From Campylorhamphus procurvoides (Eukaryota > Chordata > Aves > Passeriformes > Dendrocolaptidae): a stretch of DNA of 64,000 nucleotides. The translations under genes and the position numbers were made by a program. Shown here one piece after another: positions 3,501 through 44,006 of this stretch (within the stretch, counting starts at the first letter, position 1; each line of letters starts with the position of its first letter). The notes under the pieces are model-generated. The model saw only the letters and a program-made list of their open reading frames with translations, made no database searches and was not told the origin of the DNA. The stretch is from the NCBI GenBank assembly GCA_013396655.1, contig WBMV01004761.1:758661-822660 (forward strand). The letters are read 5' to 3'.

Positions 3501-6500
3501 ATATTGCTGCAGCTGGCACAGCTGGTAGCAGTTCTTCTGCCATTCAGAAAGGGTCTTGGCATGAGAGCTGTGTTTAAAGCTCTTCTGCTTCTGTCAGCAG
3601 CTGTCGCTTGGGTCTCCTTGCATTGTATCCAGCATGGCTCCTTAAGAAGGTATTGAGTCTTTCCTTTTGTCTTGAACAGAGGTTGTCCCAGAAATGGCAG
3701 GTGATCAATCAGCGAACCATACTCTGGTAAGCTTCACCCCTTGGTACAAAATGGGAAATGGGGTGGAGGTTTGGTCTTTTGCCCTGTTTGCCAGCAGACG
3801 GCTGGAAAACACTGTGGTGACTCATTCCCTGTGCTTGGGCAGAAGGGATACTTTAAGGCATTGGCTCCCTTCAAACCAAAATTTTTTCTCCTCAGTGAGG
3901 ATGATGCTGCAGATGACAACCCTGAATCTCAAGAAATGCTTGAGGAACAGCTGGTCAGGCTGCTGACCCGAGAAGTCATGGATCTTGTCAGTAAGTGAAA
4001 TCAAATTAGATCCCCTGGGATATTTGGGAAGTCTTCCCTGGAGAGGACAACAGGAATTCCCAATATGCAGTAAAATTTAACTGTAATGGTCAATAGCATT
4101 TAACAATGCATAGAAGCTGGGTGTGAGACAGCCCTGCCAAAATATTAACTAAAACATAGTAAGAGATAATTAAAAACCTTCAGAAGAGTTTATTCCTTTT
4201 GTGTTAGCCTTTAGGGTTCCATGGTTTTGGCACTGTCCGTGTAGGAGTCCAGTCCTATGGAATCTGGGTTTTCCCTTTCTGTGTTCTGGAACCTATTATG
4301 GGACATGGATTTGTGGACAACCCAAGTGTAGAGAAGTTTTGTTCCTGGCAGTTGCCATGTCTCTAGCCAGTCAGAGGGAATAGTCCCTCACCCGAATCAG
4401 TCTCCATTCTTTGTTTTCCCTTTCTCCAACATTGTTTTTTTGTCAGCATGGTTTTGAGCAGAGAGACTGGGAAAATTGATTTCACATAGAGATTACAGAT
4501 CCTCAGTCTTCTGTCTCCTTTCTTGATTGGCCTTTTTGGCTTAAAATGGTGTTCTTCTTGGGTTATAGACTTCAAATGGTTTTGCATGTTCCTTGTTCTC
4601 AGTAGTTTGAAGCAGCCACTGTGCAGCAGGTTCCACTGAGGGAAGGTGCCTTGGGTGGGGTGTTACAGCCTTCTAGGGAGTGTAGTATTTTGCTTTTATA
4701 ATGGGCTTTCTGATTCTTCAGATTCTCTGTAACAGCTGGGGGAGCTTGAAGCAGCTGTGAGCCCATCAGTCTGTAGGATAATTTCTGCATGTTCTGAAAT
4801 AGCATCTTCTCTTTTCTGCTCCTCTGACCTGCAACTGTTTTTGCAGCCGTTTGCTGTGTTTCTAAGAAAAATGTTGACCATAACACTACTGCTGCTGTAG
4901 ATGGAGATGGTGAGTAAAATGCCTACCTTTGCTTTTCCTGCCCTTGGCGTACACAAGCATTTTTCCTATTTCTTGAGGAAGAGGCTTGCCTCTTGATAAA
5001 AGTTTGGGGTGGGAGGGGATTATAGGTTTGGTAAGAAGCCTTCAGCAATGTCCTGCCCAGTGTGTCTGGGGGCTACAGAAAAACCCAGTCTAGCCTAGAA
5101 ACAAATATGCTGTAGAGTTCACAGGTGGCACACTGGAGCAGCTGATCCTTGAAAGTCTGAGAAAAAGAGGGGGATGTGCAGTCTTCCCAAGAGCTGAAGG
5201 GCACCCTTCCTGCCCAACAAAGTGGAGGTGCTTTTTGCTTGAAAAGAGACATTCTGGGCAAGCTTTGTCAGCATTCTGGTTCTGTGTGCTGTCTCCTGAC
5301 TCCCAGCATAGGTCTTGCAGCCTCCCTGTTGTCTCACTCAATCCTTGGGAGGCCATGTTCACAGTGCTGCCTTTGCTCTTCTCTCCAGATGACGAGGCGA
5401 TGGCCACAGAGGTGACCCCCCCTGCTAATGCAGAGCTCACTGAGCTTGGCAAGTGTCTGATGAAGCAAGAGGTAAGAGCACACGGTCTGACTTCCACCAT
5501 GCTTTCTCTGTACTCTGTCATGCTTGTCAGTTGTGCAGCCAAGCGTTGCTGCAGAGATCTAGATTGCTGGAGCATGCACCATTGTGTGAATCATCTCTTG
5601 GGAACATGCATGGTTTTTAAGGGCCTTGTAGAAGCACAAAGCAAATGAGGGTTGGGATCCAGTATAACACGCAGCTAGAATTTCAGTCTTTTTGGGAAAG
5701 AAGCCCTGGACATTCATCCCCCAGGGTGCCCCGTGGCTCTGCCTTTATCCTGGACTCATCTTCATGAGGAAGAACTTCATCCAGAAGTGGTTTCTTTTTT
5801 TCCATAAAATCTGCCCAAGCTGGTACAGAAGCCACAGTGTTAACACTGCCCACTGTGCAGAGTACCTTCATCCCAATGCCTCTGTGCTTCTCTGCTGTGG
5901 AAACCTCAGAAGCTCTTGCAGAAGCTCTTGAAGTGACTTGAGAGTAGCAGCTGATGGGGGTCCATGAGTGCTTTGGGGCCTTTCCCTGGGAGATGAAGGG
6001 CACAGGTTTCTTTGACATTGGTCCCTCATGGTTACAATGGTGCACACTGACTGCCTTTGGGTGTCTTTGAGCACCTTCAGCTGGAATAGCAGCAGGATAC
6101 AGGATTCTCAGAAGGTAACCCTTATGAGTTCTTGCAGGGTGTTTGGATTGCTTCATGTCTCCCTTCAGGTTTGAACACTGGAAGTAGGAAATAGTTCCTC
6201 TGACTGGTCCTCTCTGACTTTTTCAGGATGTTTGCACTGCAGTGCTGATCACTGCCTACACGTCCCTTTCCTGGAAGGACACCTTGTCTTGCCAAAGAAC
6301 CACAACACAGCTTTGCTGGCCATTGCTCAAACAGGTACCTCTGGGAGGAAGAAGGGGTTAGTTCAGTCAGGGTTGGCAGACGAAGCTCTCCATCTTGTGA
6401 GAAGCATGACTACTTCATTCCTGGGCACCTTCTCTCTCAGGAAGACCAAGGTGTTGCAGAAATGCAGTCATGTATCAGTATCTTGCTTCAGTGCTGACAG

Positions 6501-10783: not shown

Positions 10784-13131
10784 TTAACACATCTCCTCAC
10801 TGAGGCTCACTACCAACAGAAAACAAATCCAAAGAGATGGATTTGACTCTTATCAAGCCCCGTATCAACCCTCTTGCCTACAGAAGGCGAATCACCCTTA
10901 CAGGCAGGTGCAGGAAGTCCAGAACAGCAGTGCAGGGATATGCTTCCCACCTACAGCCTGGTCACTCCATAGGCACAGAATCCAGCTCATTCAGGAAACG
11001 CTGACACTTCCCCATCAGGATCTTGATGGCTTCACTAACCAGGACATCTGGAGGCAAGATACCCGTGGACTCCACTGAAACTGCACAGAGACAGAGGTCA
11101 GCACAGCCACGAGGCAGCTTCAGACTGCACCCAGCTCCACGTTTCTGTCCCTCGCCTTCCCTTACACCACCACGCTTGTGACAAGCCAGGTCTTCACAGC
11201 CAAACAGGTTACATTTACCAGCAGGAAGCACAAAGAGATTGAATCCCAAAGCAACACCAAAACCACAACCTCAGTAGTTATCTATTGGAATATGAATATA
11301 TGAATGCTGATGGGGGGCTAGGGGGAAAGAAAGATCCAGCCATTCATGCTGGCCCCTCTCTGCTTGTTCACACAAACCAGGCAGGGCTCTGTGGGGAACG
11401 GGACACTTACAGATGTAATGGTTTCGTACTCTTGCCAGGCGCACAAGGTTTTTCAGACCCTCATGACGGAAAACCTCTCTGCTGAATGTGTCCAACCGTG
11501 CATTGGCTACTCTTGCCACCTTTTTTCCTAAAGGGAAAAAGATGAAATTAGATGGACAAATTGCAGCAGATGGGTGCCTTGTGGTCCCCGGAGGTGCTTA
11601 CCCCTCAAACAAGCACTGCCCCATCAGCAAAGGCAGGGAAGCCACCAACAGAATTAGCGTATACCCAACATGAAACTCCAATAGGGCAGAACTAACGCAA
11701 ACACAAAGCCTGCACGTACCCCAGGGAAGGACACAAGAAGTCTTCTCCACACTCAGCTACTGGAAGAAGCAAGCTGACTACCCAGCCTTACAAGTTTGGC
11801 TCTCATCTTGAATCAGTCTCTACTAAAGCTTGTAAGGAACAAAGCATTTAGAGCAGAAAAAAAGTACCCTTGATATTCTGGATTTCAATGACTCCAGGGG
11901 AAAAGCACTTCTGCAACGTCTCAGCTGCCTCATCCTCAATAGGCTTCAGGAGAGTAATGTCAGGAAGCAGTCGGTAACTGGCCGTGGCCACAGGAGAAAA
12001 CTTGGCATGATCTTTACCTGCATGAAAAGTTAAGAGTCGAGGATGAGAGCAGGCCTCAGGGGACAAGAGTGGAAGGATGCCAGAGCCTAAAGTTCCAGGG
12101 AAAAAGCCAGTTCTCCACCCTTCCCCTTCACACAGCAGTGCCCTAGTCCAAGCACTCACATTCCTCCTCCTGCTGCCCCAGGACTCAGGACTCACCTATA
12201 CCCTTGACACAGTGCATAAGCACATCTATTTCCTGCCCAGGCCGCAGCAGTGCAATGAGGATGTCATCATGAACAGGTCGGAAGTCAGCATCTGGGAAGA
12301 GGTCTGTCTGATTCCCCAAGGGTACCCATGTCATATGTTTACTATACACTGCAAAGAGAAGCCACAAGTATCAGCCAGCTGCTGTCTCCAAGCAGGTCAC
12401 TGATCTGTACAGGTCTGGAGAAGTCAAAAAGCAAGTTTAGCAGAATGGAATCAGCTCTCCCTGTATGCACACAGCACTGAGGGAACAGCCCAAATCCTGT
12501 CTTCCAAGACCAAAAAAAGGAGAAAACCACCTATTTTTAGGAGAGACCTCACCTTTGTGATTAAAATATAGTTCATCAGGATCAGATGATTCCTTGGCTG
12601 CCTGAGGGTTTCGTTTGCATTTGATTTTCAGCTGAAACTGCAGAGTATCAATTTCTGTGCCTTCTTGATCTCCTGGGAAGAGAAGACCCTATGAGCCTCT
12701 GTGAGATCACACTTCTGCTCAGTTTACATGACCCTGATTCCCTGCTTTGAGGGAAACCTTCAAAATTTCTATTTAATCCAAGACCCTCACCTTGGTTTCT
12801 ATACTCGAAGAGCCGAGGGTCAGCTCGGATAGGGATGAGGCCCAGCCGATGAGCCAAAATTTCATCCTGCACAATGGATGTGTTGTTGTACACAAAGACC
12901 TTCTCTACAGCCATTGTTGGCACCTTAGGGAGACAAGAGATCGCGTCACCATAAGACAGTAGTTGAACTACATGCCAACAGATTATCCGGCTAGAGTGTC
13001 CCTCCTCTTCCACAAATAATGGCCATGCAGGCTATTTTCAGAGGTATTTCTACCAAACCAGAGTACCAAATATACCTTTACATGCCATATACACCCTTCC
13101 CCATTTATTTTAAACAATCACAAGAGGTGAA

Positions 13132-13222
13132 GGGCAGGAGAAAGGGCTTTGAGGCAACCTTAACCTTTTGGTACTTGGCAGCATTATGTAGTTTGTTTGG
13201 TTTGCAACACAGCTGTGTCCAA
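13132..13222 (+). repeat. Copy 1 of a diverged direct repeat flanking the POLR1C/YIPF3 promoter
   Basis: This 91-bp stretch in a POLR1C intron matches 14380-14458 in a YIPF3 intron. Both start GGGCAGGAGAA, share CCTTTT-GTAC-TGGC in the middle and end in an identical block of about 24 bases containing TTTGCAACACAGCTGTGTCC. Copy 1 carries an extra segment of about 12 bases. It may be an unnamed interspersed repeat or a local duplication. Confidence 0.75.
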
Positions 13223-13439
13223 AAGGCTGACCTGTAGGCACTACAGACAGCACCCCTAATGCAACAGACGGTATTGCCTGTGCTGCTAAGGCCCAAACTC
13301 TCTGGGCTCTGTGTGGAATGAACACGTGCTTCTCTTCCAAGCCCTTCAGCTGTCTGCAAGGGCTGACATCAGGCTGGCCCTTCCCTGCTCCCCACCACAC
13401 CATCCTTGGGCCGGCGTGCCCAGGCGAGCCCCCCGGGTG

Positions 13440-18455
<5,016 letters not shown>

Positions 18456-30259: not shown

Positions 30260-32905
30260 CTATCTACTTTTAAAATAGTTTATTTCTGGTCTTAAAATAT
30301 ACATCAGTTTGAAAATCTCAGAAAAAAACACATTAGTTACAGATTAACAGTCTGGAGTTGGGACGCTGGAAGTGGGATGAGCTCAAGGCCCCAGAGCCAA
30401 TACTGCTGGAGATGGGCAGGAGTGCAGAGGGCATCATACCCATAGGGAGAAGGCTCTGCTCCTTGAGGCCACCACTTCCCCTCAACATCTGCCAGCAGCC
30501 TAATGCTGCAAAGCACAAGTGTCTGGTGAGGCTCTGGGCACCCTTTTGCCGTCCCTCTATTTCTCCATTGTTTTGCTTTTCAGTCTACCTTGACCAAAAG
30601 CAGAGGGAGGCTGGCTCTGCCCAGCACCATCAGCACCAGCTGCCTCAGCAAGAGAGGGTTTTGTCCCCTGATCAGCATGCCAGGATTCAGGGGAGATGGG
30701 GCTGAGCCCTGAGGGGCAATGCCTCCCCAACTGCAGGCCACCAGCAGCCTCAGAGCCAGAGCAGCTCACTCAGGGAGCATCGAGCCCCAGGTGACATCCA
30801 GGAGGCAGGATGTGGCAGCTGCTGCAGATGCAAATGCTCAGCAACGTTGCAGAAGAACAGAAGAAATGCTGCAGTGGAGCAGCTGATGACAGCAAATACA
30901 AGGACCCTGCCACGATGACTGGGACAGGGGAGATGAACACTCTGCAGGCTCAGAGGAAGCTCCTGCTCTCAGCACCAGCCTGTCCGCACAGGGACCAAGT
31001 GAAATACTGCAGTGAAATAAGGAGTCCCACCTCCCCACCAGACAGTAGCATCCAGCTCCACAACTGTTCCAGGCGGGAAACAAGATGAGTGTGTAGGCAG
31101 CAACTCTAGCCAGGGTACATAAAGCAACCTACACAGCTGCCAGAGAGGCCTGCAGCTCCCTTTCACTGGCCCTGGAGCCTCCAGGCTCGAGCTGAAGCCC
31201 TGGCTGGCCCCAGCTGCAAGCTGCAAGCCCTTTGCAGAGACAGGGGTTTGGGGAGAGGAGCAGGGCCCCCAGGCAGTTTTTGGCTGCGTGTCTTGATGTA
31301 AGCATATGAACACAAGCTCCCTCATGGCGAGAGAGATGCTCTCCTGCAGCCCAGTGAAGAGCCCTCATTATGTAGGATGGGAGGACAACACAAACCCAAC
31401 TCAAAAACCAGACAGCAGACTGAGGGCAGCTGGTGGGGTTTGAGGGAGATGTGGTGTAGGGAACTGGGCTGTTCTCTGTCTCACACTCTTGGGGAAGCCA
31501 AGAAACACCAGACAGACAAGGGCACAGGACAAAATTAAAATGGGAGGCCTGGGCTTTGTAAGCCCTCAAAAAAATACCTACATCTACAAGACCTCACCCC
31601 TTCCCTCCCCCGCCAAACAAGACACTGAGCACACAAGACTGAGAAGAAAAGTCACACAATATCACACTACACTAGGAAAAACAAGTGGAGAGCCCTACCG
31701 GGAAGGAGGGCTCCAGAGAGGCACCAGAGCCAGCCTGGAGCTCCCCAAAGAAGGGGGCGTGCCTGCTGCCGAGCCATGAGGTAGTGCACCTACAGGGAGC
31801 AGCTCCTCAGCATGCTGCCCTCACATCCCTGCTGGCCCTGCACCAAGCCCTGCCCAGAAAAGCCGGTACCATCCTTCACATCTTGCTTGCCTGAGGAAAG
31901 ACCTTGTTCTTGAGTCTGGAGGGGTTTCTACAGGCTGGAGGCCAGGATCAGAGGGAAGTACAGCTCTGATAGCTGAGCCTCCTCAACACACCCTCAACGC
32001 AGGTAGCAGACAGGCTGCCAACGGCTGTGTCTGTTTACGAGGGGTGGGGAAGAAGAAGAAACAATACACCCCAAAACCAAAGGCTTGGAAAGAAGAAAGC
32101 AGCCCACCCAAGAGCAAAGCATCAGCACCGTTCAAACAAAACAACAGCACAGAGAGCGGGGGAGGAGGTGTGAAGGGAGGAGACACACAAACACAAACCC
32201 CAGCACCCAGCAGGCAATGTCTCCCTGAACCACCTCAGCAGGCAGCACCCGTGCATCACCTCTGTGGGGACCAGGTGCTGAGCCCAATGCTGGAGATCTG
32301 CAGAGGCACATCCTGGAGAACCACCCAGTGGACTGCTGGGGAAAACAAAAGTGAGCAGGAAAATGAGACACCAGCAATCCCAGCACATCCCCACGGCACA
32401 CAGCCATCCACTGGGAGAGTCCTCATGCCCCACTCATGGACCCCGGGACTCCCAGGGGAGACACCACCACACAGGCACTCTGCCCTGTTGGCACAAGTTA
32501 AAAGAGAGCAGAGCAACTGTGGTCAACCAGCACAAGAGCACCCAGGGCCTCAGGTACCTGAGTGGGAAGGGGGAAGGGATGAGAGTGTAAAAGAGGCACA
32601 GGCACCAGGACAAGGGGTACCAAGAACTAGCTCTGGTACAGGCACCAGTGTGAGGCTGTGGAGAGAGCTGCGAGCATGTCTGGGCAGTGGGTGTGCTTCT
32701 GCACACTGCGTGTGCTAGTACTGCAGGTCTGAGATGCTGGGGAAGGGGAACCTCAGCTCTTCCAGGTAGCAAAAGGAAGAGAATAAATATAAAATTTCAG
32801 AGAAGACTTGCCCCGGAAGGAGGATACTAAGGGAGGTTTCTCCCTCAGGTGGACTGATGGAGGCATCCCACAGCTCTGCAGCATGCGGCTGCTTCTTGCT
32901 CTGCC
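30260..32905 (-). other. TJAP1: TJAP1 3' UTR (about 2.6 kb)
   Basis: This is minus-strand non-coding sequence after the TJAP1 stop codon at 32906. The first canonical minus-strand AATAAA found downstream is at 30284-30279, which would end the transcript near 30,260. Opposite-strand open frames in this stretch, the longest being 32044-32718 on the plus strand, show no recognisable domain and are taken as chance. Confidence 0.6.
30279..30284 (-). terminator. TJAP1: TJAP1 poly(A) signal
   Basis: AATAAA read on the minus strand, inside an A/T-rich patch (GTTTATTTCTGG on the plus strand). It would end the TJAP1 transcript about 700 bases from the distal LRRC73 signal, making the two genes tail-to-tail neighbours. 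Confidence 0.65.
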
Positions 32906-35900
32906 TCAGCTGAGAAGGTTGCCCTGCTCCTGGGCCTGTGTCAGACTGTCCTTGCGATGTAAGTGGTGGACCCCCATCCTCTTGGGACTGCGATGCAGCC
33001 GACTCAAGGGAGGCTTGACCCTGCCTTCTCCACTTTCCTCTTGGGCACCTCCCTCACTGCTCTCCTTGTTTCCCTGGAGCAGCATTTCTCTCTCTTCAGC
33101 TGGGCTCTCAGGCAAGCCAAGGTCCACATATTCCTTGTGCTTCTCTGGTGAGGGGCTTTCAGGCTCAGCAGCACCTCCACCGCTTTCATGCAACAGCTTC
33201 TGGGCTTCATCCTGGGAGAAATCTGTACCATAGTCTGAGGAGAAATGGCTCCTGCGGGCTCTGGACTCGGTGCTGTCTGTGTCCACGCTTGAGTCCCGGC
33301 TTACAGTCCAGCTGCAACTCTGCGCAGACTCCTCACCATCTGAGTAAGCTGAGGATGCCCTACCCAGCTCCTGCATGGAGCGGCTGAACCTCTTCTGGAG
33401 CTCGGGGGCCGTGTCACGGCTGAAAGCAGTGCGGTTCATCAGCACGCGCTCTGAGGTGGGGGGTGCCTTGTCCACAAACATACGTTGCCAGTTAGCCAGC
33501 AGGTCCTCCTCAGAGCTGGCAGAGCTGGCAAAGGCGCTCGGGATTTGGGGAGGGCTGCTGAATGGGCTGCTCTGGGAAGAGCCGTGAGCTCTGGATGCTT
33601 TAGGGGACTGCTGACAGGAGCAGCTGGAGGCTGAACGGCGCCCTTCTGAAGCAGGGCTGTTGGGGAGTGTCCGGTGCCTGTCGCAGCTCTCATCTTCGCT
33701 CTGTACCAGGCTGAGGGAGATGGCCTGGCGCGTAGCATATGTACAGTTGGGCAGGGGGCTGTTCTTTGGGATCTTTACCTTGTCCTCCGAGAACTCAATC
33801 ACTTTGCGCCCTGGGTACATAGGATGGGGAGGAGAGGGAGTAGGATACGGGCTTAGCTTCTCAAAGGCAGGCATGTCCTCAGGCACACTTTCCACACTAC
33901 TCTGTGGCTTGCAGCCACCATTCTGTTGTTTCCCTGCATCATCTCCCTCCTTCCCCATCTGCCCTGAGCTGTTGCAGGCGTCAGGAGGGGCTCCACTCAT
34001 GTCCACATGCACAAAGACATCCTCAGCCATGGGACAGCTGCCACTGCTAGACTTGGCTGAATTCAGAACCAGAGATTCTGGTTTCTCCAAGACTCTGGCG
34101 ATGACTGAGGTGGGCACAACATCAGATGGAGCCAGGGTGTGGGCTGCCTCTTGACCAGGGCCTGCAGACTCCTGAGTGCTGTGCAAATGCTTATTGACCA
34201 TGTCCTGCAGCTCATAGGGAAGCTAGGGAGAAAGAAAAGACATTAGAAGGGGGCTGCCATGCAAGAAATTTAGTAATTAATCTGCCTTTTCTTATCTTGA
34301 CCCTAACATTCACCTACCTCCCTTACCTTGAGAAAGGCATCTCTTTTCAAAGCAAACCAGCCCCATGAGGGACTACCAAGGCTCTCTAGCTGTCACACCA
34401 GTCATGTTTCTAGGCCATGGTTCATAGGCTCCATTTGGCAAAGAGAACAAGAAAAAATGGCACATAGGCGCAGTTCCACATGCCTGTGAGCAGAGACAAG
34501 GCCCAGCCATTGCATGCTAGGAAGAAGCCTATTGATCTGTGGAAAATCAGTCGGTGGTTCACTGCAGTGACTCTACAGCCCCCAGTGCTTGGATTCACAG
34601 CACTCCCTGAATGCGTAATTGCAGCCATGCTGCCTTGGCATCTTGCCCACAGACCAGGATCGATGCCTTCCCCTGTTCCTATCAACTCTACCACATCATC
34701 CCCCTTCCTCACTCTTTCCATTTCAGAGAGGCAAACATGGGGCTTATTACCAAAGCTACAAGATTGGGGTCTCACCAGGGCATAAGCACCACCCTTGTCC
34801 TGAAAATGGGCACTACTACTCTCCCCATCACCCTGCCAAGCTGCCCTCACCTTGGTCACCAGACATAAGCACTGCATCAGGTGGAGAGCAGAGGTCCCCA
34901 GGCTGCATAGGGGCATAGCAAGGTCTGCCCCACCACAGCCAGAAAGAAACTGCATTCAAAGCTTGGGATGCAGGGTACACAGCTGGCTATGAGGAAGGCT
35001 GTCTGCACAGCTGCTCAGCACCAACCCCTCTCCAGTGGCAGTCACATGGGACACAATGCTCTAGGGCGCAGAATTCAAAGCTCCAGAGAGGGGAGACAGC
35101 TGGGAGAGAGGTCAAGGTTACCCCAGCAGTAACTGATACACTGGCCTCAAGAGTGCTAATTTGAGACACAATGGGGGAGGGTGACATATTGGTCACCTGC
35201 TAAGTTAAAAAAGACAAGCATGTGGTTTTGCTGAGAGGAACATAAGAAGGGACAGAAACTAGAAGTATGACAAGGAGAGAGCTGGGGTAAGGGCTTGAAT
35301 GATACCTTCAACCAAAGAAGTGATGCTACTAACAGTGAAAGACCTGAACCCCATCTTTGCTCATCCTGAGGGCAGGATGAGCTGAATGCTCTCACACACA
35401 CCATTTCCCTCCACAAGGGGGAGTATAAGTTGATATGATCTGTTCAGAAGGCCTAGAAGACACCCTGAATGCTGCCTCACACATTTCTTCTCAAGGTAGT
35501 AAATGAAGCCAGGCCAGACTACTGCTGCTTAACTCCTTATGAGGCCTTTCCATGTGGCCAGGTGAGAAGGGAAAAGGATGAAACAGAGTAAGAGAGAGAT
35601 CTGTCCTGCTGCCAGCTCCCAGCACACACCCAGCAGGATATCAAATTCAAGGTTATTGTGCTTTTTATAACAGTTCCTGGCTGAACTGTGAAATGGAGCT
35701 GTCATGAAAGAGGACCTGGCAGAAACTCTGTGCTGCCTTCTCAGTAGAAGCAGGAACAGGAGCCTCCCCCCACCTCTGAGGCTGAAGGATGAAAAACCAG
35801 CAGCCCTGTGGAGGAAGTAAGATGCATGCATAACCCATGAGCCCTTCTTCCCCACCTCAGCAGGATTGCTACTCACGTCAGCAAACTTGTGGTTCCTGAA

Positions 35901-38900
35901 GTGAGACTTGTTACATTTGAGTAGCTGTACTGCAAGGTTACAGTCCTGTCGATAGCGTTCCTGCAAGAGAGGGCACAGGTGTGCAACAGTGTTAGACGGG
36001 CCTGATCTCTTACCCAAAAAGGCCCCACCTGACCAGATGCTGCTTGAACAGAAGCCAGAGAAGACATCTGATCAGTCGCTCATGAGGGCACCTGCCATTC
36101 CCTCCTCCCCACACCCCTGTGTATTTTCTTACAACTCAGCCAAGGTGTCTTTTTCAAATCCAGTCCTTGCTCCCAGCATATACTGTCAGTGTATCAACCC
36201 TCTCTCCCTCTGGGGATGTTAATAATCTCCAAAAGTCCTACCAGATTTGCTTTTCCATCCCACAGCTCTCAGCCACGTCTGATGATGCAGACAAGCTGGA
36301 GGGAGCTGAGAAGAGTTAATAGAATCAAGCACCAGATCCAGGAATTTCTATATTAATTGTGTAGAAAACACATCAGCTCCAGAGTAAATGACACCTCCAT
36401 TGGTACAGTCTAGACTCAGGTCAAACCCTAAGCTCAAAAGAGCAAGTACATCAAACTTGAAGATGAGTTCTTCCCTGCTCAATCTCTCACACCCTTTTCT
36501 GTTTGTCTCCCTACTGTTGTGTACAGCTTCCACCCTTTCATACACACTGGAGAAATTCATGTGCTCCTTTCCACTAATGACTTTGAACAAAAGGAAAAGC
36601 CCCCACCTCATACACTTCCACAACCATTTACAGACTGACACTTACATTGAGTTCCTCCAGCTTATTGATGGTGGTTTTGGCATCAAGCAATTTATTAGTG
36701 AGCTCTACAATCTCCCAGTCCAGAGTCTTGCGGTCCATTTCTGCCTTTTTAATCTGGGATGCAAGAACACCAGGTGTGAAACTCCCTAGCACAGAAGAAC
36801 CTGGCTTCACCACCCACCTCAGTCCAAGCATAGCACAATGAAATGTTCAGCTGGAACACAAAAAACTTCCAGACAGACAGACAAGTGAGACAACCCTCTT
36901 CAAAGGGAGGGGATTCCAAAGGCCCAAGGGAACCAGCCATTCTGCTAGCTACAGAGACAACAAGGTTGAGTTTGAACCTCTTTCATGCAGTATCTCTTCT
37001 TGCACCATCAGCATGTTTCCCCTCTGCCCTAGTTCCCATGGTGCCTGGTATAAAGCTAGTGTTTTTGAGCACTCAACCTCAACCTGCCGCTGGTAGCAAA
37101 GACCTCTGAGCTTGCAATACCCTGCTATCTTCCCTGGGGCAGCAGAACAAGAATACTTCACAAAAAGATCCAGCAGTCAATGCTGGATGGACAAGGAGGC
37201 TTTTTTTAAAGGAGGAAAGCACCATCTTGAAGGAGTTTAAGCCTTGCTCTAGTAAGTCAAAAGATCTGTGTAGCATCATCTGAAATTTGGCTAATGCCCT
37301 TCCTAAAGCAGGCAATCTTGCCTCTTTAGACTCCCTAAAAGTTCAGGTACAGAGCAGACAGAGACCCAGATGTAACAGCAAATAGGGGCAACAGCTCAGA
37401 ACAACCAAGCCACAGCTGTCCCAAGGAGTTCTTCCAAAGTACCCAAGGGTGCTGTGAGGCTGTGACCACCAGGGCCCAGCTGTGTGTCAGGGGTACAGCA
37501 CAACAACACACAATGGAGTAGGGGTGGGACAGTACTCAGTCTCTTCAGGAACCAGCACAATATGTAAGTCTGTAGTGAATATTAGCCCAAGAAATTAAAG
37601 TGCTAGAACCAAAGAAATCTCATCCTGAGCTACACAGAGGCAATCACCATCTCAGCTATTTGACTTGCCTGCTCACAGACCAGAAGGGGAAGGAAAGGGA
37701 GCAAACGAGGCTCACAGCCATCCATATCTCGTGCAGTGCCGCAGCTTAGGGGCACCACTTCCCAACACGCCATGCTCCAGTTGGCTCAGAGTCAAACACT
37801 CTTAAGATGGAGCACTGCAAGCTAGGACCTGCTGCATCTGTGGGCAGCTGCTGGATACCAGGTGAGCCCTTGGCTGGACGAGGGCTGGGGCCCCTCCATC
37901 TGAGATGGTATATGTGGGACTGACAATGAAACCAACAGGCTGAGACACGTAAAGAGGAAAAAGAAAAAACACACAAACGAAAAGACGCAACTGCAAAAAT
38001 CCAGCTTTGGCTGAGAGAGGCCTGAGAGGTGAGTGCGCCCAGCGTGTGCCAGCGGCAGCGTGGGGAGGAGAAAGAGAAAGAGGGGGGGAGGGAGAGAAAA
38101 GAAACAGCCATGAGTGTTATGAATGCACACATCAGACATACACGCACATTGGCTCTGCTCTGACTGCCCCCATCCTCCCAGATGACCACCCCAAGGCTGG
38201 CTGACACATCCCTGGCATTTTGAGAGGGACTGAAGCAACACGACGGAATACCATGCAATTATGTTGTGAGGAACCAAAGCTCACGTGCACAACCAAGTAG
38301 GGTCTCAGTAAATCAACAGAACAGTTCATGACACCAGCTAGAATGGGGAGTAGATGATCATAGCCAGAATCTCACCCCTCCCCCACTGCCACATCTGCTG
38401 AGTAATGACAGGGCCCCTTTTCCCCATCCACTCCAAACAAATAGGTCTCTTTCACCTCATCTCTGTAGGGACTTAACAGGGCACTTACCAGGGCATGCAG
38501 CTTCTCCTCCAGATCTTGATTGGTTCTCTGGGAAGCAGTGTAGCTGTTCTGCAACCTACGAAAACAAGATTGTAAGCATGGGAACAGATCTCAGGCACCT
38601 TGTCAAGTTGCCTTCATAGCTGCCAAGCAAACCACCGACTCCAGAAGTCCTGAAAGATTGCTACTAAGACAACCAGGCATATTAGCTATGCCTCATTTCT
38701 AGCACACAAGGGCTTAGACCCCAAGTTACTGTAGGCAAGATGAAGCTGGCTGGGTGAAAGGATCTTGAAAGAGAGGATGTAAATTACTTTGAAGGACTCC
38801 TCTGAATTGTCATATCTAAGCACATGACCAGTGATTGGCACTGATTTTTAACTGAAGTAATTTTCAGGTAAAGTGGTGATGTACTTTCTTGCAGGCATCA

Positions 38901-41900
38901 GTGGCTTCTTTTGTACACGTGGGTTAACCATCCAAGCTGGACCCTGTCTTACATCCAATAGACAAAGAATTCCCTACTGTCAGCCTCTCATGCTGACAGC
39001 ATTCCTACACTGTAAGCTGCAGTAAATAATGGCTGTGGAGCCTTTAGCTCTCCACTACAGTCTGGAGCTGCACACTTCCAAGGATGCAGTGTGCCTTTGG
39101 TTTACGCAACAGGGCACAGCCTGCTCACACCAGCTGAGGAAGTCCTCAGTGGGAGGCATCTCTCTAAATCTACCCCTTTCTTGTTTTCTTTTCCATACCT
39201 ACGGAATTTGTCCTTGAACTTCTCCAGCTCCTCACGGTTCTGGCCCAGTTCCATCTCCAGGTAGTCCTGACCTGATTCCAGTTCCCTCTCCATCGCCTCC
39301 ATTTTGTTAGTCACATAGGTCAGCCGTCGACGAAGCTCCTCGTTCTCATGCTGCAGTAGCCTGGCAATAGAACAAGGTACTACTGAGTTGCACAAGGGGT
39401 ACTCCACAACAGCACCCCCACCCTGCTGCCCTGCATTAGTATGCAAGACTCCACACAGGGGCCCCAGGAAGTCAGGAAATGAACTGTCAGGAGACTCCAG
39501 CACATGAAGCAAGCAGTGCATCTCTGTCAGGACACAGACACTCCAACTCTCTCGGAGTAGGGTCAAAGAAGTACATGCCAGCTGGTCAGCCATAGTTCCC
39601 AGCTCCCTCTCAGGTTACAGTGCTTGGATAAAGCCCACTAGACAGATGAGCTGTGCAGCTCCAGTATCCCTCACTGATAAATGAAAAACACTCAATAATT
39701 TATCTCAGTCCAGGTTAGAAGAGTTGAAAGCAAAAAGAGTAAAATCATTTTATCCTCCCCTGAATCTGTTCAAAATCCCTCACATCTTTAATACTTGGTG
39801 GAGAGATGACTCCATAAAGCCTTAAGACCAGAAGCAGAGGTGCTGGAGTGCATTTACAGATGTGATCACAGGTACCAGTCAACCCCACTGCATCATAAAC
39901 TGCTCCATTCCTCCCCAGCCAGGACATGTCTGTTGGTTGGAGGGATTTCCTGTTGTTTTTCATTCCTTTGTGCTCAGTTGCTTGGAGAAATCCAGAAGTA
40001 CAGCTTCCCTCTGGCAGTGCAAGCTTTCTCCTCACTATGGCCTGGAGCTCAGTGCTAGCAGCTGTGTCCCACAGTACCACCAGCAAAGGGCTCAGCTCTC
40101 ACCCTCAGTCAGCAGCACGCCTCTGCATACTGCTTCTAGTGGCTTACACCAGAACAAGAAGGATTTAAAAAGGCACTCCCATCTCCACCTCTATTAAAGA
40201 CTTCATCTACTTTTCTTTCACACCCACCAACTCCTCTGCCTGCACCTGCACTGGTGGTCTGTGTTCCCTCCTCCAAGGGGGACGGACATGCAAGGCAGAG
40301 CCTGGCAAGGCACAGACCAAAGCTCTGCCCACATGGCCCCAAGATGATTGAAGATCTGAGATGAGCCCACAGAGCCAGTCAGCTTCACTGTGCAGGTGGC
40401 AAAGGCAGGATGTGAGGAATCAGCACCCACACAGTTGCAGTATGACAGGCATAAAGGGGGAGCAGGATACTTACTTCATCCTTTCTGCATCCGTCAAGGG
40501 TTCCTGCACAGGGAAGAAAAGAGCTGTGAGATTATGTCAGAGGAGGACTTGGTCTCTCACACTATCCTAAAGGGCAGTCTTGGTTGCTGGACCCTAGCTG
40601 TGACTCTTCCTCACCTGCTCTGATAGGTCATCCTAGGCCAGTTTAGAGCTACAAGGATCTGTACACACCACTCAGCTATCTGATACCAAAATACACCGTG
40701 TGTTCTGGTTCATGGCAGAAGAGCTGGACTAGAAACCACCACACAAGTTAGGTAACCTTACCCACCCATGGTGCAATCTCAGCACCTCTTGTAGAATCAT
40801 CATCTTAGCTGGTGTTTCAGCTTCTTCCACATTCACAGTAAGTGGGTAGTAGGAACCTCACAGGCCAACACACATAGGATTAAATTGTCACCACAGTAAT
40901 CACTTGTGGGGCCCTTGAAGACCCACAAAAAGCATGAGAGAAAATAATTTGGGAGATGAAAAATGTGGTTACCGTTTACACCACCTAGATTGTGCTTTGA
41001 AAATGGTTTCTTTCTGCAGACCTGAAACCAGCCACTGTAACTATTCCAGAACAGCAGAAGAAACACCAAAGGTCAGAAAAGCCTGTAAACGGAATTAATC
41101 TTATGGGCAAGACCCCCAGAGGTGGATGGAGCAGGGCCCTGCAGAACAAGGAGACACAGAGCAGTGACAAGAGCACACAGCTCAGCTATTTTCACTTCTT
41201 TTGCACTCCCTGTGTTAACCCATGACCTGAAATAGACATCATCTAGTACCCCAAGACAGCCAGGCACAGGGCACACACAAAGCACCAGGAGCATCTCAGC
41301 ACTTCCTGATGACAGGTGCCTGCCTCTTGCACAGGCCTACTACCCAGCAGGCTGAAGGGCCTCCAACCAGTAAACACCTGGGAAAGCTGCAGAGGGGAGA
41401 AGAGCACCAGTTTTTACCTTCCATAACTCCTGGGGCTTAAAGGGAAGCTTGTTACTCCCAGGAAGATATACCCAACCTGTAGCACAGCTGTAAGTGGCAC
41501 CCCCACTAAAGAGCAGCTTCCGATGATTAAGCACCCACAATATGAGGTCTGGAGGCCTGCTCTCACTCTCCTCACTGGCTTTACAGACTAGATGAGATCC
41601 AGGTGGGGGCTGTGGCCTTCGTGAGACCGCTGTCTGCAAGTCAGCAACCCTGGCACCTACCTTGTTTAGTGCCAGGCTGAAGGAAGGGGAGGATCTAGAT
41701 GGGGTAGGCCCCTCCTCCCGACTCCAGTGTGTTGGAGTGGAGCAGGATCCTTTCTCTGGGTAGTTCGGCTCCACTGTACGCTTCTGCCCAAGCTTAGCAC
41801 ACTGATGGTGTGGCTGCAATAGCCGTGAACAGGGACTGCTTTCATCCCTTCTGCCCTCTCCACTGATTTTCCATGAAGACAGTGAATGCTGCTGCCCAGA

Positions 41901-43109
41901 GGATGTCCCTGCCAGCCCCAGGTCTGCCAGCTGCTGCAGCTCATACTGACATAGATCTACTACCCTTCTCTCCAAGGAAAGTTTTCCCTTACTGTCCTTC
42001 CTCCCAAGGACAGGTTTCTTTCTTAGTCTGGAAACTCTCCCAGCTTCCTCAGCACACTTTCTCAGGCACGAAGCCATTCCCAGTCCCTCACATTTCTTTT
42101 CTGTTTTTCTTCTGCTTGGGCAAGGGGATCTTTCAGTTGCATGCTTGGTTTTGACCCCTTGCAGGTGACCTTCCCCTTGGCCTTCTGGCACAGAGCTTCT
42201 GGGGAAAAGGGGAGAGTTCTGGTCTTGTTCTGCTCCCCTAGTCTCTCCCAGTGAGCGCAAACGGTTGGGCCTCAGCACCCGCTGGGTAATCTCATCCAGG
42301 AATTTGGAGAACTGCAGTTTTTCCTCTGTGATCTTCTCCCTGCGCTTGGCAGAGTCGGCGGCACTGCTGCTGCTGTGCTCCAGGGAGCGCTTCTCCCTAG
42401 GGCTGAGGCAGAGCTGAGGATCACTGTATTTGTGTGAGCCATGGCCACGGCAAAGTGTCTCTACTGAGCGGGACTTGCATAAGCTCTCAGGACATGAGCC
42501 TGTCATGTTGGTCTGCTTCAGGATCCCTTTGAGAGGCAGGTGCGTAGCTGAGACACGAAACTTCCTCGGTGACAGGACTTCAGGAGGCTCTTTAAATATA
42601 AGTGAGCGTTCCAGGCTTCTGCTCTTGAAAGAGCAAGTGGGATGGTGTCTTTCATCTCCAGACACCAGAACTGTCTCCATGCTACGGCTCACAAATTTAC
42701 TGCGGTGCCCACGACTGCGGTTTGGGCATCGCTTCCCACTCCGCTGCCCCATCTTCCCACTACGTGGAAGTGCTGGCGAGACAGTCTGGCTCTTGATGTT
42801 CAATTCTGCTCTGCACCCTGTCACTTCCTTCTCACTGCTGGACTCCAGGGACCACGATGAGGAGAAGTTCAGGTTGCAAACCTCAAACCCCTCTGCCTGC
42901 TTGAGCTGGCCTGCCTCGGTGTAACTAAACCCTGTTTGCTGGTGCAATGGTGTTAAGCCCTTTGTCACCCGGCAAGTTGTTACCTGACTCTGCTCAGCCA
43001 AGATCACTCCATCCTGGTCGTCACGAATGATGGGTACCTCATGGCGGATTTCGCGATGCTGCGGGGGCGCCTTGCGGTAAGGCTTCTTTGATGGAGCTGT
43101 GCTCGACAT
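32906..43109 (-). CDS. TJAP1: Tight junction-associated protein 1, canonical seven-exon form
   Basis: TJAP1 (PILT) is a coiled-coil protein of tight junctions and trans-Golgi, related to BEGAIN. Minus-strand exons: 43109-42984, 40503-40475, 39360-39199, 38555-38489, 36753-36646, 35960-35877, 34222-32906. Phases close exactly: 630 residues and a stop. Exon 1 encodes MSSTAPSKKPYRKAPPQHRE and exon 2 EPLTDAERMK. Exons 3-6 carry the coiled coil (about residues 48-190) with DYLEMELGQNREELEKFKDK, QNSYTASQRTNQDLEEKLH, EMDRKTLDWEIVELTNKLL and YRQDCNLAVQLLKCNKSHF. The large last exon has VPTSVIARVLEKPESLVLNS, FEKLSPYPTPSPPHPMYPGR, a Ser/Pro-rich stretch and the tail SPKRMGVHHLHRKDSL...NLLS. Human TJAP1 is 557 aa; the extra length here is mainly in the Ser-rich last exon. 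Exon 1 can also be read through its donor (see separate entry). Confidence 0.95.
41418..43109 (-). CDS. TJAP1: Extended first coding exon of TJAP1 (alternative 5' splice site), 564 codons
   Basis: The ATG at 43109 opens a frame of 589 codons that runs straight through the canonical donor (CAG|GTAACA, exon end 42984) to a stop at 41340. Before that stop lies a second good donor, AAG|GTAAAA, with exon end 41418. Both donors leave phase 0 (42 versus 564 codons), so joining 41418 to the usual acceptor at 40503 stays in frame and predicts a protein of about 1,152 aa. The 522 extra codons are Ser/Arg/Lys-rich. They carry repeated motifs SRSMET (141-146), SRSLER (163-168) and SRSVET (213-218), and a predicted amphipathic helix (about 258-288, EEKLQFSKFLDEITQRVL). 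I do not recognise the insert. The alternative reading is a chance open frame in a retained intron, but roughly 24 stops would be expected in 522 random codons. Confidence 0.6.
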
Positions 43110-43142
43110 CCTCCCACCTGCGTGGCTCCGAAAGCAGGTTAC
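43110..43142 (-). other. TJAP1: TJAP1 5' UTR part of the first coding exon
   Basis: Upstream of the ATG, on the minus strand, a pyrimidine-rich tract (CTCTTCTGTGCACTTTCTGC) leads to TTGGTAG, an acceptor placing the exon start at 43142. A second AG (CACGCAG) lies closer to the ATG. There is no CpG island here, so transcription must start further upstream and at least one non-coding exon must exist above 43.2 kb. Confidence 0.5.
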
Positions 43143-43810
43143 CTACCAACAGCAGAAAGTGCACAGAAGAGAGTGTCACGGGCGCTCCATCGAACCCAAG
43201 GAGTGACCCAGCGGGAATTCAGCTCCCCTGGAGTCCCAGAGCAGGTCCCCATGCAGAGTGCTAATAGAGCAGGGAAATGATGTAGCCACAAGCCATGAGC
43301 ACCAGCTGCAGGAGAGGGAGCAAAGTAAGAGGTAGCTGTGTCCTTCTCCCAGCCAGTGAGAGCAGAGGGCTGGCACATCCTCTCCCCCCCTCTACACACA
43401 CTCACTCACGTAGTCTGTGTGTGTCCGGATTATATATAGCAAATGAGAACAGACCTCACAGCAGCATATTGATTAGGCTCTTTAGGAAAGGCCTTTTTCA
43501 ATATGGAAACTGCATGCCTTACAGGCAGCAGTGACAGCGGGAGCAGGAGTTATTGATCATCTCCTGTCACTATCAGCAGGGACTATGTGGGAGGAGACTT
43601 CAGCCATTAAAGTGCCCAAACCCAGAACTTTTTGGTTTACACTAGAACCCCAGTGCAGCAGACCACAGCAGACCTGTCAGAAAGATGTTACCATAGAACT
43701 GCTCGCTCTATCAGAAAAGACAGAAACAACCCCCAAGTCAGAGGTGGCATCAAATTAGCGAGCAATGTCATTGATGTTGGTTCCTAAGGCCAGATTTTGT
43801 GACACTGAAC

Positions 43811-44006
43811 CACAGAATGGCCTAGGTTGGAAGGGACCTCGAAGATCACCTTGTTCCAACTCCCTGGCATGGGCAGGGAACCTTCCACTAGACCACGTTA
43901 CTTGGAGGTCCACCCAGTCTAGCCTTGGCCTTGAATATCTTCAGGGATGGGGAGTCCACAACCTCTCTAGGCAACCTGTTCCAGTGCTCCTTCACCCTTA
44001 AAGAGC
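43811..44006 (-). mobile_element. CR1 LINE, short 3' fragment
   Basis: The plus strand shows the reverse complement of a CR1 tail: CACAGAATGGCCTAGGTTGG, AGGGACCTCGAAGATCACC, CATGGGCAGGGAACCTTCCA, CTAGACCACGTTAC, TTCAGGGATGGGGAGTCC, ACCTCTCTAGGCAACCTGTT and CCAGTGCTCCTTCACC. It is closer to consensus than the copy at 10.1 kb. It is 5'-truncated with no coding capacity and lies just upstream of the TJAP1 first coding exon. Confidence 0.9.

Follow-up and report, generated by a model that had tools for sequence, protein, structure and literature searches.

Large optional exons that add long, charged and disordered inserts to a protein by splicing are known from exon 4a of big tau and from the giant-exon ankyrins. 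For TJAP1, the protein considered here, PMC10820826 gives a location at the Golgi and the tight junctions, describes the precise function as essentially unknown, identifies residues 9-22 as a ligand of the Mint1 PTB domain (~21 uM) and predicts a homodimer through the central coil. The gene lies on the minus strand of a 64,000-nucleotide stretch of the genome of the bird Campylorhamphus procurvoides, which is referred to below as the window (positions 758,661-822,660 of its contig, in an assembly that was searched across 1.02 Gb and 2,666 contigs). In this window the first coding exon of TJAP1 stands at the head of a very long open frame. We give a probability of about 0.72 to the reading that this exon has a real coding extension, which covers 42983-41661, perhaps continues to 41418 and would be included through the choice of an alternative 5' splice site. 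An isoform of this type had been proposed in a first-pass annotation of the same DNA, and a coding extension is still the best reading given the frame, the composition, the donors and the codon bias of the first 246 codons. The features on which the argument turns are as follows.

42984..43109, minus strand: first coding exon of TJAP1, 42 codons, with its ATG at 43109 and its end at the CAG/GTAACA junction
41661..42983, minus strand: insert A, which continues the exon 1 frame for 441 codons with no stop, the proposed coding extension to the AAG/GTAGGT donor, suggested by the probability of an open frame, by composition and by a partial synonymous bias
41655..41660, minus strand: AAG/GTAGGT donor after 41661, phase 0, score 9.94, the strongest donor of the region
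41418..41660, minus strand: insert B, 81 more open codons, up to the AAG/GTAAAA donor, exon-like to about 41543 and then intron-like
41412..41417, minus strand: AAG/GTAAAA donor after 41418, phase 0, score 7.05, the donor of the first-pass annotation
40475..40503, minus strand: exon 2 of TJAP1 (EPLTDAERMK), whose acceptor is common to all proposed forms

The open frame is real, and its reported coordinates were confirmed. The 42-codon exon begins and ends where it was said to, and it sits in a minus-strand frame of 600 codons from stop to stop (43142-41343), which is closed by the stop at 41342-41340. Within 42983-41418 (522 codons) the exon 1 frame contains no stop, while each of the other five frames contains 9 to 30. 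The earlier expectation of about 24 stops in 522 random codons is somewhat too high, with dinucleotide shuffles of the insert giving a mean of 20.0 and a minimum of 9; none of the 2000 shuffles was open. Under a local Markov model, all 522 codons would be open with a probability of 1.3e-9 and the first 441 of them with one of 1e-7, and the two parts of 42983-41661 are each open beyond chance (2.3e-4 and 4.5e-4), with 41660-41418 at 0.015. The same model was used to rank all open reading frames (ORFs) in the window that have at least 100 codons and no N. The TJAP1 extension ranks first of 97 with a log10 P of -9.9, and the known last exon of TJAP1 has -6.6. The longest ORF in 60 shuffles of the window, taken with N removed, is 261 codons.

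The control DNA consisted of 221.6 kb from the same genome, of which 200 kb come from the same contig and 21.6 kb surround a paralogue that we take to be BEGAIN. None of its 262 ORFs reaches -9.9, and the only one below -5.3 is the last coding exon of BEGAIN (-8.07). If the frame were a chance opening in T-poor intron sequence, its composition would help by reducing the stop rate, and the absence of codon periodicity described below would be in keeping with it. The control DNA, however, has no comparable non-coding ORF, and neither the composition-preserving shuffles nor the model that allows for local dinucleotides accounts for the open frame. The improbability of this ORF in the shuffles, the window and the control DNA therefore makes chance a poor explanation, which we regard as very improbable.

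The three donors after 42984, 41661 and 41418 are all in phase 0 and share one acceptor at 40503, as read from sequence only. All donor scores are derived from a table of donor frequencies. The six canonical TJAP1 donors score between 6.95 and 10.67, with the donor of exon 1 lowest, about level with the 7.05 of the 41418 donor, and two others at 7.1. The donor after 41661 is the best between 42984 and 41340 and falls within the top 0.3% of the 2,147 minus-strand GT sites in 30001-63000. Splicing 41661^40503 would add 441 codons and yield a protein of 1,071 residues, and 41418^40503 would add 522 codons and yield 1,152 (630 + 522). The latter junction is the one named in the first-pass annotation, and its donor, phase, acceptor and arithmetic all agree with the sequence. 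It is plausible as a phase-0 junction but not the best supported, the much stronger donor at 41661 having been overlooked. A simple cassette exon was also considered and rejected: acceptors with strong pyrimidine tracts open at 42198, 41676 and 41386, and none is in phase 0 relative to codon 42. As a separate observation, a possible 9-nt exon (CTTTCCCAG; 41378-41386, minus strand) lies just past the 41418 donor, between a strong pyrimidine-tract acceptor and a fair donor, GTGTTT.

Base composition bears on where the extended exon would end. The two parts of 42983-41661 have T contents of 0.192 and 0.174, and the three TJAP1 exons that were measured range from 0.167 to 0.180; the values are 0.285-0.302 for intronic or upstream stretches, 0.243 for 41660-41418 and 0.308 beyond. 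An order-1 exon-against-intron score, trained on the same window, gives +35.8, +15.8, -3.2 and -4.4 nats for the successive pieces ending at 42246, 41661, 41418 and 41343. Its cumulative value is maximal at 41543, which divides insert B into a portion at +7.4 and a final portion of 128 nt at -10.2. A two-segment fit places the change at 41542-41547 and rates 41660 slightly better than 41417 (19.05 vs 17.82). Exon-like composition stops near 41543, between both long donors. The donor scores and the composition speak more for 41661 and the open frame more for 41418, and both donors may be used.

These measurements bear directly on a nested version of the proposal, in which the extension is real, 41418^40503 is the main junction and 41661 is silent or minor. 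The openness of 41660-41418, the exon-like composition that persists past 41661 and a donor score equal to that of the canonical donor all speak for it, but its donor is 2.9 bits below that of 41661, the DNA immediately upstream of that donor is intron-like and synonymous bias is absent in 41660-41418 (-0.041). We consider this version possible but doubtful. The frame also continues beyond both donors to 41340, as it would if a retained or unspliced transcript ran into the intron and stopped there, giving a 589-residue protein without the coiled coil or a nuclear or decay-prone RNA. According to PMC10548223, human microglia retain a TJAP1 intron, which that paper counts as intron 4. Such a product is nevertheless unlikely here, given that 43109-40504 contains no AATAAA or ATTAAA (the ORF itself has two weaker variants), that the tail past 41417 is intron-like and that a strong phase-0 donor would be left unexplained.

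The peptide encoded by the proposed extension has a composition of its own, with 14.5% Ser, 9.8% Leu, 9.5% Arg, 8.4% Glu and 7.9% Lys among its 441 residues. The part with its most distinctive elements is the following.

42243..42689, minus strand: stretch with four (S/K)RS(L/M/V)E motifs, the related RSLGE and a predicted helix at residues 250-278

The motifs are SRSME at residue 141, SRSLE at 163, SRSVE at 213 and KRSLE at 240, with RSLGE at 285. Their Ser codons are AGC, TCA and TCC, and their Arg codons are CGT, AGA and CGC. A similar FSRSMQEL occurs at residue 471 in the C-terminus of canonical TJAP1. The repeated S-R-S-x-E motifs of the first-pass annotation are thus present, and their statistical support is modest: self-similarity of the 441 residues in frame 0 exceeds that of shuffles at p 0.008 by one of four measures, with nothing significant in frames 1 and 2, and the motif had been spotted before testing. 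A single-sequence structure model of the 589-residue frame predicts a mostly unstructured chain, with a mean predicted local distance difference test (pLDDT) of 40 and values of about 55-64 in the best blocks of the 250-278 helix. Compared with shuffles, an amphipathic peak near this helix does not reach significance (p 0.093). The GILK at residue 195 resembles a SILK motif; it has no RVxF partner and was set aside. A scan of 39000-44000 found no tandem repeats.

Several measurements weigh against a coding extension. Codon-position periodicity is absent in 42983-41661: its chi-square of 6.2 is close to the mean of 66 non-exonic windows (5.5), lies below the value for stop-free random sequence (8.7) and is far from the 44.5 of the last TJAP1 exon. 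The plain codon log-odds of 0.094 is barely the best of the six frames (next 0.078), with 0.225 for the last exon and -0.18 for the intron after the extension. A measure of synonymous choice, which removes amino-acid effects, falls to -0.071 in the 195 codons that follow the first 246 and is 0.044 (z = 1.6) across all 441. The bias of the first 246 codons has a P of 0.04 against windows with a fractional G and C content of 0.5 or more. The remaining three self-similarity measures give p 0.06, 0.38 and 0.65, and the best value for the 522-residue version is 0.05. T-poor DNA also occurs outside exons, with plus-strand windows within 30401-32923 lower still, and the insert has no relative in Pfam or PDB at E up to 10.

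The coding measures also contain signals of the other kind, and they differ in power. With the amino-acid make-up of 42983-41661, the expected chi-square is 10.4 (4.1-19.2) for coding sequence and 2.7-15.3 for background, and the observed value is inside both ranges; low periodicity is expected from the amino acids of the insert, and the periodicity test therefore has little power. In the first 246 codons, synonymous bias is 0.135 +/- 0.038, the highest of the six frames. Known TJAP1 exons score 0.114 and 0.164, and six hand-chosen ORFs presumed to be non-coding score between -0.081 and -0.008. The six-frame pattern of the 246 codons mirrors that of the last exon, and their bias has a P of 0.009 against all genomic windows. 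The true BEGAIN exon scores -0.016, so the synonymous-bias test misses real exons.

Searches for relatives place the insert at a single locus. A protein search of the same genome, at E up to 10, returned its own locus and four stop-bearing matches at E 0.53 or worse, which gives the insert one place only in the genome. Among viral contigs (2 pattern matches) and prokaryote contigs (37), no relative was confirmed with a single-protein query, which reaches close relatives only. The paralogue presumed to be BEGAIN is a member of the Pilt family located in the same assembly at C963:50850-51461, and like TJAP1 it has coiled-coil exons and a Pilt C-terminus. No relative of the insert was found in the 51.6 kb around it, a stretch that does not reach the BEGAIN 5' exons; for this reason the BEGAIN locus neither supports nor refutes the extension. 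A long TJAP1 isoform does not appear in the excerpted literature on TJAP1 splicing, isoforms, microexons and BEGAIN, and gene-model databases may already hold one.

The lack of a detectable paralogue, the missing periodicity and the lack of codon bias in the second part would also suit a decayed exon, one that lost its use or its constraint after coding for protein in an ancestor and has a frame open by history only. Against this stand the absence of any stop in 522 codons and the intact donors, and a relaxed frame of such length should break fast. We hold a decayed exon to be improbable.

Under the favored coding extension, the spliceosome would skip the canonical donor at 42984, which is rather weak, and take an in-frame donor downstream, most likely AAG/GTAGGT after 41661, or else AAG/GTAAAA after 41418; exon 2 would follow from its usual acceptor at 40503. 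The linker gained in this way would be basic, rich in Ser, Arg and Glu and for the most part disordered, and it would contain the repeated (K/S)RS(L/M/V)E motifs and the single predicted helix. On its N-terminal side would be the Mint-binding peptide, which is encoded in exon 1: residues 9-22 are KPYRKAPPQHREIR and fit the N-terminal pattern KPYRKAPP.HRE.R in a by-eye comparison with the peptide of PMC10820826. On its other side would be the dimerising coiled coil, which begins in exons 2-3. A linker of 441-522 residues in this position could lengthen the tether and hold the Mint-binding end away from the dimer, and its repeated Ser-containing motifs could add docking or phosphorylation sites.

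A broader proposal is offered tentatively, as something we think rather less likely to be true than false: birds, and perhaps other vertebrates, may have an unrecognised giant first-exon isoform of TJAP1 in which a fast-evolving disordered linker of about 441 motif-repeating residues uncouples the Mint-binding N-terminus from the coiled coil, under regulation through donor choice. If the long form is expressed, TJAP1 would reach 1,071 or 1,152 residues instead of 630, and studies of the short form alone could miss what the long form does. The extension would also be an example of an exon that codon-periodicity scans may overlook, a Ser/Arg-rich insert with little expected periodicity.

Seven coding exons of TJAP1 were located in the window by splice signals and peptide anchors. 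Those downstream of exon 2 are listed here.

39199..39360, minus strand: exon 3, where the coiled coil starts
38489..38555, minus strand: exon 4
36646..36753, minus strand: coiled-coil exon
35877..35960, minus strand: coiled-coil exon
32906..34222, minus strand: last coding exon, with the Pilt domain PF15453

The canonical coding sequence, spliced by hand, encodes 630 residues and has a single, terminal stop. Its last exon matches the Pfam Pilt family (PF15453) with E=1.3e-171 and 571 bits, where the cut-off is 27, which makes the protein a member of that family. Between the TJAP1 exons lies a candidate in-frame microexon of 30 nt (ASLSQSWIFA; 37992-38021, minus strand), with the acceptor ctctcag and a weak donor, gttgcg. 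We presume that a similar human segment exists. A figure legend of PMC12148930 on mis-spliced microexons includes Tjap1. A 312-codon open frame on the strand opposite TJAP1 (31780-32715, plus strand) lies in an A-rich and T-poor stretch just past the TJAP1 stop; its log10 P is only -3.9, it has no Pfam match and a negative synonymous bias, and it is probably due to chance.

Elsewhere in the window, a 166-codon frame at 5091-5590 (minus strand) matches Period_C of Pfam only weakly and below the cut-off (E 0.0045), which is also probably due to chance. At 13110-14486, a run of N falls within the open frames (18 X when translated), which include a peptide that resembles POLR1C.

The proposed form is closest to the canonical TJAP1/Pilt isoform, with which it shares the gene, the start codon, everything from exon 2 onward, PF15453 and the coiled coil; the canonical isoform lacks the insert of 441 or 522 residues after codon 42. 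With big tau and the giant ankyrins it would have in common a long, charged and disordered insert that is spliced into a known protein. These systems use optional exons, whereas in TJAP1 an alternative 5' splice site would lengthen the first coding exon.

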